From: Luscinia megarhynchos
Taxonomy: Eukaryota > Chordata > Aves > Passeriformes > Turdidae
NCBI GenBank assembly: GCA_034336665.1
Contig: JAPFBE010000067.1
Span: 1-64,000 of the forward strand
DNA length: 64,000 nucleotides
Direction: 5' to 3'
Position numbers and translations under genes: made by a program. Shown piece after piece: positions 1 through 62,900 of the stretch. Every line of letters starts with the position of its first letter. Position 1 is the stretch's first letter. The notes beneath the pieces were generated by a model. The model saw nothing but the letters and a program-made list of their open reading frames with translations, ran no database searches and was not told the DNA's origin.

Positions 1-1241
1 CCCAAGCGGGACCAGGCTGATTCCCAGTTCCTTTCCCAGTTTCCCAGTTGGATTTTCCCTTTCCCAGGTGCAGCAGCTGGTGCCCAAGCGGGACCAGGCT
101 GATTCCCAGTTTCCCAGTTCCTTTCCCAGTTTCCCAGTTCATTTTTCCCTTTCCCCAGGTGCAGCAGCTGGTGACCAGGCTGATTCCCAGTTTCCCAGTT
201 CCTTTCCCAGTTTCCCAGTTGGATTTTCCCTTTCCCAGGTGCAGCAGCTGGTGCCCAAGCGGGACCAGGCTGATTCCCAGTTTCCCAGTTCCTTTCCCAG
301 TTTCCCAGTTGGTTTTTGCCTTTCCCCAGGTGCAGCAGCTGGTGCCCCAAGCAGGACCAGGCTGATTCCCCAGTTTCCCAGTTCCTTTCCCAGTTTCCCA
401 GTTGGTTTTTCCTTTTCCCCAGGTGCAGCAGCTGGTGCCCAAGCGGGACCAGGCTGATTCCCAGTTCCTTTCCCAGTTTCCCAGTTGGATTTTCCCTTTC
501 CCAGGTGCAGCAGCTGGTGCCCAAGCGGGACCAGGCTGATTCCCAGTTTCCCAGTTCCTTTCCCAGTTTCCCAGTTGGCTTTTCCCTTTCCCCAGGTGCA
601 GCAGCTGGTGCCCAAGCGGGACCAGGCTGATTCCCAGTTTCCCAGTTCCTTTCCCAGTTTCCCAGTTTGTTTTTCCTTTTCCCCAGGTGCAGCAGCTGGT
701 GCCCAAGCGGGACCAGGCTGATTCCCAGTTCCTTTCCCAGTTTCCCAGTTTGTTTTTCCCTTTCCCAGGTGCAGCAGCTGGTGCCCAAGCAGGACCAGGC
801 TGATTCCCAGTTTCCCAGCAGTATTTCCCAGTTTCCCAGTTGGTTTTTCCCTTTCCCCAGGTGCAGCAGCTGCTGCCCAAGGGGGACCAGGCTGAGTCCC
901 AGTTTCCCAGTTCCTCTCCCAGTTTCCCAGTTCCTTTCCCAGTTTCCCAGTTGGATTTTCCCTTTCCCCAGGTGCAGCAGCTGGTGCCCAAGCGGGACCA
1001 GGCTGATTCCCAGTTTCCCAGTTCCTTTCCCAGTTTCCCAGTTGGATTTTCCCTTTCCCAGGTGCAGCAGCTGGTGCCCAAGTGGGACCAGGCTGATTCC
1101 CAGTTTCCCAGTTCCTCTCCCAGTTTCCCAGTTTGTTTTTCCCTTCCCCAGGTGCAGCAGCTGGTGCCCAAGCGGGACCAGGCCTATTCCCAGTTTCCCA
1201 GTTCCTTTCCCAGTTTCCCAGTTGGATTTTCCCTTCCCCAG
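1..1241 (+). repeat. ACTN4 minisatellite that contains an exon start and its acceptor
   Basis: Unit of 80-111 bp (usually 90-91): exon start GTGCAGCAGCTGGTGCCCAA, about 36 coding bases, then intron-like TTCCCAGTTCC and a TTTTCCCTTTCCCCAG acceptor. Exon-start copies begin at 68, 159, 239, 330, 423, 505, 596, 687, 769, 861, 972, 1062, 1152, and the true exon at 1242; a partial copy begins the window. Confidence 0.97.
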
Positions 1242-1376
1242 GTGCAGCAGCTGGTGCCCAAGCGGGACCAGGCGCTGCAGGAGGAGCAGAACCGGCAGAA
1301 CTCCAACGAGCACCTGCGGCGCCAGTTCGGCAGCCAGGCCAACCGCGTGGGGCCCTGGATCCAGACCAAGATGGAG
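1242..1376 (+). CDS. ACTN4: ACTN4 exon, spectrin repeat 3/4 junction (45 codons)
   Basis: Starts after a TTCCCCAG acceptor with [12 protein letters not shown] and ends in WIQTKME before a GTGCTG donor, phase 0 at both ends. The reading frame is intact. Everything to the left, back to base 1, is a tandem array of this exon's first 36 bases plus its acceptor, so this is the last and only full-length copy. Confidence 0.95.
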
Positions 1377-59900: not shown

Positions 59901-62900
59901 CAATTTGGGATCCTAAACCAGCCTGGAATCCTAAAAACAGAGCCCTGGATCCCAAAAATCCAACCTGGGATCCTAAAAATCAACCTGGGATCCCAAACAT
60001 CAATCTGGGATCCTAAAAATCAACCTGGGACTCCAAACACCCACCTAGGACCCAAAATTACAGCCCAAGACCCAGAACACTCACACAGGACCCCAAAAAC
60101 CAACCTGGGATCCTAAAAACCAACCTGAGACCCCAAAAATCAAGTTAGGATGCCCCAAACCTCCACCCACTGTGGTGATGGAGTAGATGGGGGTGAGGAT
60201 GGTGAAGAGCAGCACGGTGTGGTGACCCCAAACCCCAATAAACCCCAATAAACCCCAAGAAACTCCAATAAAATCCAAATAAAACCCCAATAAACCCCAA
60301 TAAACCCCAATAAAACCCCAATAAACCCCAATAAAACCCCAATAAAACCCCAGTCTCACTGTGGTGATGGAGTAGATGGGGTTGAGGATGGTGAAGAGCA
60401 GCACGGTGTGGTCACCCCAAACCCCAATAAACCCCAATAAATCCCAACAAAACCCCAATAAACCCCAATAAACCCCAATAAACTCCAATAAAATCAAATA
60501 AAACCCCAATAAACTCCAATAAAACCTCAGTAAAACCCCAATAAAACCCCAATAAAACCCCAGTCTCACTGTGGTGATGGAGTAGATGTGTGTGAGGATG
60601 GTGAAGAGCAGCACGGTGTGGTGACCCCAAACCCCAATAAATCCCAATAAGCCCCAATAAACCCCAATAAAATCCAATAAAACCCCAATAAATCCCAATA
60701 AATCCCAATAAAACCCCAATAAAACCCCAAACGCACCGTGGTGATGTAGTAGATGGGGTTGAGGATGGTGAAGAGCAGCACGGTGGTGGTGACCCCAAAC
60801 CCCAATAAACCCCAATAAAACCTCAGTAAAACCCCAATAAACCCCAATAAACCCCAATAAACCCCAATAAAACCCCAATAAAACCCCCAATAAAAACCCC
60901 CCAAACGCACTGCGTGGTGATGGAGTAGATGGGGGTTGAGGATGGTGAAGAGCAGCATGGTGTGGTGACCCCCAAACCCCAATAAATCCCAATAAAACCC
61001 CAACAAACCCCAATAAAACCCCAATAAAAGCCCCAGTAAACCCCCAGTCTCACCGTGGTGATGGAGTAGATGGGGTTGAGGATGGTGAAGAGCAGCATCG
61101 TGTGGTGACCCCAAACCCCAATAAATCCCAATAAAACCCCAACAAACCCCAATAAAACCCCAATAAAACCCCAATACCCCCCAGTCTCACCGTGGTGATG
61201 GAGTAGATGGGGTTGAGGATGGTGAAGAGCAGCACGGTGTGGTGACCCCAAACCCCAATAAACTCCAATAAACCCCAACAAACCCCAATAAAACCCCAAT
61301 AAAACCCCAATACCCCCCAGTCTCACCGTGGTGATGGAGTAGATGGGGTTGAGGATGGTGAAGAGCAGCACGTTGTTGACGCCCCGCGCGTCCTCGCTGT
61401 CCCCGGGCCGGGAGATCTTCTGGCTGGTGGAGTAGTTGACGAAGGCCGGGTGTCCCGCGAAGTAGATCTGGTTGTCGGCGGCGTAATTGACGGCGTTGCA
61501 GGCGCCCAGGATGTCCTCGAACTCCACCAGCGCCTGGCGCTTCTTGGGCATCACCACCACGTAGCTGGGGTAGGACAGGGACAGGGACATTGTCACCGTG
61601 GTGTCACCATGCCCTGGTGTCACCAATTCCTAGTGTCATCATCCCCTGGTGTCACCAACCCATGGTGTCACCAACCCCTGGTGTCACCACCACGTAGCTG
61701 GGACACAGGGGCATTGTCACTGGGGTGTCCCCATCTCATAATGTCACCATCCCCTGGTGTCACCACCACGTAGCTGGGACACAGGGACCTTGTCACCGTA
61801 GTGTCACCAGCCCCTGGTGTCACCAACCCCTGGTGTCACCAACCCTTGGTGTCACCATCTCATAATGTCACCGATTCCTGGTGTCACCATCACATAGCTG
61901 GGACACAGGAACATGGACATTGTCACTGGGGTGTCACCAACCCCTAATGTCACCATCCCCTGGTGTCACCATCTCATAATGTCACCAACCCTTGGTGTCA
62001 CCACCATGTAACTGGGATGGGGACAGGAACATTGTCACTGGGGTGTCACCAATCCCCAGTGTCACCACCACATTGGTAAGATAAGGGACAGGAAAGCACT
62101 GCCACCGTTGTCACAGTGCTCCCAGCACACTGTCCCTGCTGTCCCAACCCCAGTGTCCCCATCCCAGTGTCCCCAGTGTGTCCCCACTCTGGTGTCCCAA
62201 ATGTCCCCAGCATCCTCAGAGTGTCCCCAGCACACTGTCTCCAGTGTCCCCAGTGTGTCCCCAGAGTCCCCAAAGTGCCCCTTGTGTCCTCCACTCCAGT
62301 GTCCCCAATGTCCCCAGAATGTCCCCAGGTCCCCACAGTGTCCCCAGTACACTGTCCCCAATGTCTTCAGTGTCCTCAGTGTCCCCAATGTCCCCAGAAT
62401 GTCCCCAGGGTCCCCACAGTGCCCCCAATACACTGTCCCCAATGTCCCCAGTGTGTCCCCAGTGTCCCCAGAATGTCCCCGGGGTCCCCACAGTGCCCCC
62501 AGTACACTGTCCCCGGTGTCCCCAGAATGTCCCCAGCACACTGTCCCAGAATGTCCCTGGTGTCCCCACAGTGCCCCCAGTACACTGTCTCCAGTGTCCC
62601 CAGTGTGTCCCCAATGTCCCCAGCACACTGTCCCAGAATGTCCCTGGTGTCCCCACAGTGTCCCCAGTACACTGTCTCCAGTGTCCCCAGTGTCCTCAGT
62701 GTCCCCAAAATGTCCTCAGCACACTGTCCCCACAGTGTCCCCAGAATGTCCCCATTGTCCCCAATGTCCCCAGCGTCCCCAGAATGTCCCCAGCACACTG
62801 TCCCCAGTGTCCCCATAGTGCCCCCACTGTCCCCAGCACACTGTCCCCACTGTCCCCAGAGTGTCCCCCGGTGTCCCCACTGTCCCCAGCGTTCCCAGCA

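Follow-up and report, generated by a model that had tools for sequence, protein, structure and literature searches.

Organization of the locus

The DNA considered here (the window, a single stretch of 64,000 nucleotides, nt) carries the 3' end of ACTN4 on the forward strand and, on the opposite strand, a putative LGALS4 gene, ECH1 and most of HNRNPL. In the introns of these four neighbouring genes the edges of adjacent exons, together with their splice sites, recur in tandem arrays (Table 1), a situation resembling the exon stuttering described in chicken. Exon positions come from tblastn with human protein queries and from GT/AG anchors.

Table 1. Exon-edge arrays of the window and the exons that they adjoin
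Feature	Positions	Strand	Remarks
ACTN4 acceptor array	1..1241	+	14 copies, up to 32 exonic nt, 13 with splice site; unit about 90 base pairs; continues past window start
ACTN4 exon	1242..1376	+	Authentic acceptor 1241/1242; tblastn, GT/AG anchors
LGALS4 donor array of the 20080..20181 exon	19347..19942	-	4 copies above 100 shuffles
Putative LGALS4 exon, weak identity	20080..20181	-	GT/AG anchors
LGALS4 donor-side array of the 22363..22563 exon	21631..22323	-	9 copies, GT retained in 1/9
Putative LGALS4 exon (l3)	22363..22563	-	tblastn, GT/AG anchors
LGALS4 acceptor array of the 22363..22563 exon	22645..24593	-	8 copies, up to 50 exonic nt, AG retained in 8/8
ECH1 e8 donor array	28501..29735	-	8 copies, about 55 exonic nt
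ECH1 exon e8	29736..29886	-	Anchors and structure match
HNRNPL exon h10 (VSKQHAIMPGQSYGLEDGSCSYKD...)	42038..42239	-	Anchors and structure match
HNRNPL h10 acceptor array	42309..44419	-	13 copies, up to about 75 exonic nt
HNRNPL h9 donor array	44506..44885	-	3 copies, about 55 exonic nt
HNRNPL exon h9	44977..45098	-	tblastn, anchors
HNRNPL h9 acceptor array	45239..46058	-	6 copies, about 26 exonic nt
HNRNPL h8 donor array	46253..46646	-	3 copies, 72 exonic nt
HNRNPL exon h8	46749..47043	-	tblastn, anchors
HNRNPL h8 acceptor-side copies	47131..47369	-	2 copies, 1 above strict threshold
HNRNPL h3 donor array	60170..61246	-	7 copies, about 50 exonic nt
HNRNPL exon h3	61327..61564	-	tblastn, anchors
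HNRNPL h3 acceptor array	61684..62016	-	4 copies, up to 14 exonic nt

Exon edges are copied into the adjacent intron

For 57 edges, 28 of them donors and 29 acceptors (the h4 and h11 donors and the h5 acceptor were placed by hand), forty exonic bases per edge were compared with 29 introns, using as threshold 29.2 bits, the top score among 10 dinucleotide-shuffled sets. Copies in the adjacent intron are present for ten of the 57 edges, spread over 8/29 introns (9/29 when a test against 100 shuffles is counted), and none of the 57 has an exonic copy in any non-adjacent intron at 29.2 bits. Two further short arrays, LGALS4 19347-19942 and HNRNPL 61684-62016, exceed 100 shuffles once the splice site is included. 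The presence of exon-edge copies in the introns is confirmed. The run that also covered stricter thresholds gave 19/57 exon-edge matches elsewhere at 29.2 bits with subjects that carried 60 exonic bases per end, and these matches are probably the flanks of neighbouring exons.

The best exonic match lies within 1 base of the exon border in 8/10 cases, the h8 and l3 acceptors beginning at the seventh base. The copies are not whole-exon duplications: in the aligned arrays they end about 14 to 80 nt into the exon, and no exon-interior 40-mer (0/18) has an intron match.

The original prediction, drawn from the letters of the window, listed 12 places (counted there as eleven) at which the tandem unit takes in an exon edge. 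Ten of them are recovered by shuffle-controlled matches: ACTN4 1-1241; LGALS4 18965-20075 and 22565-24600; ECH1 28340-29735; and HNRNPL 42260-44420, 44500-44976, 45105-46080, 46245-46748, 47050-47480 (a single copy above threshold) and 60165-61326. LGALS4 21510-22362 holds in part, with one exonic copy above threshold and GT missing in 8/9 copies. ECH1 27600-27852 does not hold, there being no splice edge at this position and no copy of the last 35 coding bases above 100 shuffles; a longer query including the untranslated region does align there. The HNRNPL acceptor array at 61684-62016 was absent from that list.

At least half of the copies stop at one array-specific exon position in 8/10 arrays examined. 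The commonest end-point is shared by 13/14 copies in the ACTN4 array (a1), 9/13 in h10, 7/8 in the l3 acceptor, 6/8 in e8, 3/3 in both the h8 and h9 donors, 4/6 in the h9 acceptor and 4/7 in the h3 donor; the two exceptions are the h8 acceptor, with two copies, and the h3 acceptor, where spurious matches were picked up. A shared end-point within an array is consistent with one founding duplication that was later multiplied. Each array is built from its own exon and the exonic copies are confined to the adjacent intron, which bears out the proposal of many independent events in one locus. A common process behind the arrays is likely.

Repeat membership falls from intron to exon

The share of 40-mers that have another copy within the same intron depends strongly on position. 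At 29.2 bits it is 1860/1997 (93%) in the intron interior, 37/57 (65%) at intron ends (the 40 bases by the splice site), 15/57 (26%) at junctions, 10/57 (18%) at exon edges and 0/18 in the exon interior. From intron interior to exon edge the counts are 1674/1997, 25/57, 9/57 and 9/57 at 40 bits, and 1338/1997, 12/57, 7/57 and 6/57 at 50 bits. Shuffled introns give 119/1997 interior matches at 29.2 bits, 3 at 40 and 0 at 50. Because interior 40-mers overlap, they cannot be counted as independent, and low-complexity sequence is present among them. At none of the three thresholds does repeat membership peak at the exon boundary. On a plain reading, the exon-edge copies look like spill-over from intron-wide tandem duplication.

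We consider it probable that the arrays are a case of exon stuttering that arises in this manner. The introns are composed almost entirely of locally arisen tandem repeats, and an occasional duplication would cross a splice junction, placing tens of bases of exon edge and the splice site within the intron. The founder unit would then have been multiplied and reshuffled through unequal exchange or gene conversion among units. Such junction-crossing duplications would be tolerated by selection because, after a tandem duplication, the authentic junction remains intact on the exon side; those that disrupt the exon would be removed. The setting would be a dot chromosome of a bird.

Several observations weigh against this interpretation. 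The repeats of the introns are generally less local than the exonic copies, 485/1997 interior 40-mers matching another intron at 29.2 bits and 60 at 40 bits. Microhomology at the exon-internal breakpoints is not significant (Fisher P 0.30, 10 arrays, including the h3 acceptor with its misplaced breakpoint). Mismatches pooled over nine arrays number 756/9932 in exonic parts versus 945/8876 in the adjacent 40 intronic bases; this lower exonic divergence is unexpected under plain neutrality, though nested repeats make the intronic alignment less sure. In eight arrays, LGALS4 21631-22323 being left aside, the splice pair is kept in 59/61 sites, slightly above other base pairs (P 0.026 versus all pairs, 0.042 versus exonic and 0.002 versus intronic pairs), and this survival excess is weak. 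The h10 array departs from neutrality, as detailed below. Finally, the dot microchromosome on which the window probably lies is a placement that we infer.

G-quadruplex motifs cover 2846/17950 bases of nine array introns (about 1108 in shuffles) and 3290/26188 bases of the remaining introns (about 1339 in shuffles). Since they exceed shuffles in both classes, they were rejected as a marker of exon-edge arrays. The motifs favour the coding strand in the nine array introns (2615 versus 231 bases) and are found on both strands elsewhere (1514 versus 1776).

Variation among copies and possible exchange with the live exon

Variants private to a single copy fall at the third codon position in 18/67 cases, as in non-coding DNA. 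Shared variants do so in 15/30 (P 0.043), and h10 supplies 10 of those 15 (10/14). Coding constraint across all arrays is unsupported: the third-position signal is carried by h10 and is not seen among private variants.

Codon bias was examined in eight arrays, the h8 acceptor being excluded because it has too few copies. In h10, 9/13 shared variable columns and 0/6 private ones are at third positions (Fisher P 0.005; base-matched P 0.0087). Correction for eight arrays raises these values to about 0.04 (Fisher) and about 0.07 (base-matched). When the exon row is left out, the counts are 7/11 shared and 2/8 private (P 0.03). The other seven arrays show no third-position excess, each with just 0 to 5 shared columns and hence low power. 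Codon differences between h10 copies and the exon comprise 54 synonymous and 17 nonsynonymous changes.

Copies of h10 are also mosaic. Four-gamete conflicts affect 20 exonic site pairs when the exon is included and 11 when it is not; no other array has more than one exonic pair of this kind. The h10 copy at 43268, for instance, repeats the CCT GGC of the exon, and the copy at 43467 repeats the exon's TAT GGC. Conflicts occur in 6/8 arrays tested and, outside h10, mostly involve intronic sites. In 5/6 arrays similarity between copies does not rise significantly with proximity (in h10 it does, P 0.047, r 0.28). Both results fit exchange that reaches beyond slippage between next neighbours.

The h10 mosaic does not readily follow from the decay of dead copies, and exchange with the live exon would explain it. 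Gene conversion between the array copies and the live exon, the latter acting as a filter so that mostly synonymous variants spread, is possible but doubtful; it would add to spill-over from tandem duplication and not replace it. Such exchange would account for the excess of shared over private third-position variants in h10, for the larger number of conflicts when the exon is included and for the preponderance of synonymous differences. Against it, the pattern is seen in 1/8 arrays tested and weakens after correction and without the exon row, the h3 donor and h9 acceptor arrays hold shared replacement variants, and the data are compatible with exchange in either direction, with recurrent mutation as an alternative.

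A somewhat bolder proposal, which we put forward as speculation, is that the arrays could form a template store in two-way exchange: the exon would filter what spreads, and the array would return synonymous and occasional replacement variants to it. If live exons do exchange with decoys, the instability of dot-chromosome introns would reach coding sequence, which would bear on rapid evolution and gene loss on dot chromosomes.

In the h9 acceptor array (45239-46058), most copies share replacements relative to the live exon (K to Q, two codons), so that the array seems to have bypassed the exon in spreading.

Survival of splice sites and predicted fate of decoys

The splice dinucleotide is intact in 69/78 copies of 12 arrays, three more copies having the site outside the match. 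This count tracks small insertions and deletions, so that ECH1 e8 stands at 8/8; the base-pair survival test scores it 7/8. Eight of the nine losses are in the LGALS4 donor array 21631-22323 and one is in h10. As a description, the statement that splice motif and codons survive in most copies is correct, as these dinucleotides and the copy alignments show. Such survival is not by itself evidence of constraint: third positions account for 18/67 private variants.

What use of these decoys would entail can be predicted for the 64 whose site is intact and whose phase is known: 46 would lead to a stop and 12 to a frameshift without a stop, whereas the remaining 6, of which ACTN4 has four, would give open in-frame inserts. 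Under exon definition, the splice site closest to the other end of the exon is favoured. Decoys lie farther from that end because, after a junction-crossing duplication, the authentic junction is the copy next to the exon, and the authentic site would thereby have an advantage over them. The "real problem for splice-site choice" raised initially is partly right, the authentic junction being intact and nearer the other site of its exon.

Retention of decoy sites or exon copies by selection, whether for regulated alternative splicing or for damping of expression via nonsense-mediated decay, is very unlikely. The slight excess of intact dinucleotides, the lower divergence of exonic than of intronic parts between copies and the third-position excess of h10 are what it would lead one to expect. 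On the other hand, the LGALS4 array that has lost GT in 8/9 copies stands outside the 59/61 comparison, private variants have no third-position bias, and the splice excess is weak and one among several tests.

Boundary seeding and assembly

The original prediction suggested that the expansion is seeded at exon boundaries. On this reading, duplication would start preferentially at the splice junction. Many arrays indeed adjoin a junction, and most best exonic matches extend to the border. Preferred starts should, however, exceed the introns in repeat membership, yet junctions fall far below the intron interior at every threshold, and 42/57 junctions have no copy at all. Boundary seeding is therefore unsupported and we regard it as very unlikely. 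Comparing positions along this gradient is a simple way to tell boundary seeding and spill-over apart.

In tblastn, at least four coding exons (h12, e6, e7 and a6) match their protein solely across two reading frames, which points either to base errors in the assembly or to decay. Base accuracy is for this reason judged poor, and copy numbers and single-base variants are therefore to be treated with caution. Also very unlikely is an assembly artefact in which the extra copies would be misassembled or stem from unresolved reads: the two-frame exons imply that copy numbers are perhaps wrong, but every array has its own exon and unit, copies vary by patterned substitutions, and raw nanopore reads from a different locus, PHF8 of chicken, backed the general structure of the repeats (PMC12954441).

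The two-frame exons are located at 39057-39150 in HNRNPL, at 31406-31480 and 31223-31299 in ECH1 and at 7718-7877 in ACTN4.

Comparison with known systems

Exon stuttering has been reported in chicken, where 115 genes and 236 introns contain copied exon edges, 190 of these introns being on dot chromosomes; the mechanism was left undecided between replication-stress repair and meiotic conversion (Hron et al. 2026, PMC12954441). The two systems share introns made of local imperfect tandem units of tens to hundreds of bases each, and an exon edge that is copied with its splice site into the adjacent intron (PMC12954441). The copied source lies within 1 base of the exon border in more than 90% of chicken cases versus the 8/10 best matches found here. 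In chicken, intron length also varies between individuals (PMC12954441). Density is higher in the window, at 8/29 introns (or 9/29) versus 190/5572 annotated dot-chromosome introns in chicken, with thresholds that differ between the studies. Potential alternatively spliced transcripts are noted in that paper itself (PMC12954441).

Of the four genes, HNRNPL and ACTN4 were looked for in its main text, with 0 occurrences each; "synonymous", "codon" and "frame" at word starts likewise gave 0. Neither the gradient test nor the third-position mosaic was found in the sections consulted. Among the matches listed by a literature search on sequence or exon stuttering and dot chromosomes, no second paper uses either stuttering term. 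Since the introns of the window are locally repetitive, and exon parts with splice sites occur in neighbouring introns above shuffles, the window, if avian, is a further dense case of an already described phenomenon, here a dense cluster extending across four neighbouring genes.

Tandem duplication is also a route to intron gain, in which a new intron arises inside a coding exon from a duplicated AGGT. Variable minisatellite units at exon-intron boundaries are known from repeats of human paralogs, where exons and introns are lengthened or the repeats are tied to new introns (PMC2812944); in the window the exons remain single. The GC-rich hidden genes of birds (Beauclair et al. 2019, PMC6792250) share tandem-repeat introns with G-quadruplex motifs that are hard to sequence; copying of exon edges is not mentioned in the passages listed from that paper.

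Gene assignments and minor observations

One exon piece each of HNRNPL (42036-42238), ECH1 (29739-29885) and alpha-actinin (3170-3349) was checked and matches a solved structure. The identity of LGALS4 relies on a single weak tblastn match and on gene order, some of its exons being unplaced; the gene order of the window agrees with a published synteny that groups LGALS4, hnrnpl, ech1 and actn4 (PMC10343441). The two long LGALS4 "introns" may conceal further exons, and other candidate stretches are 1441-2899, 8301-18699, 36501-38299 and 48301-55899. None of seven exon pieces submitted to Pfam, including two of LGALS4, scored above the cut-off (one weak match to a domain of unknown function lies below it), and no family reached its gathering score in an Rfam scan of the window.

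The h4 donor and h5 acceptor of HNRNPL (59410 and 58068) have no GT or AG, respectively, at the end of the protein match. The h8 acceptor (47043) reads AAG, and one of its copies reads CAG. Between two EF-hand exons of ACTN4, the segment 5437-5499 is stop-free and has both AG and GT, and is possibly an alternative exon.

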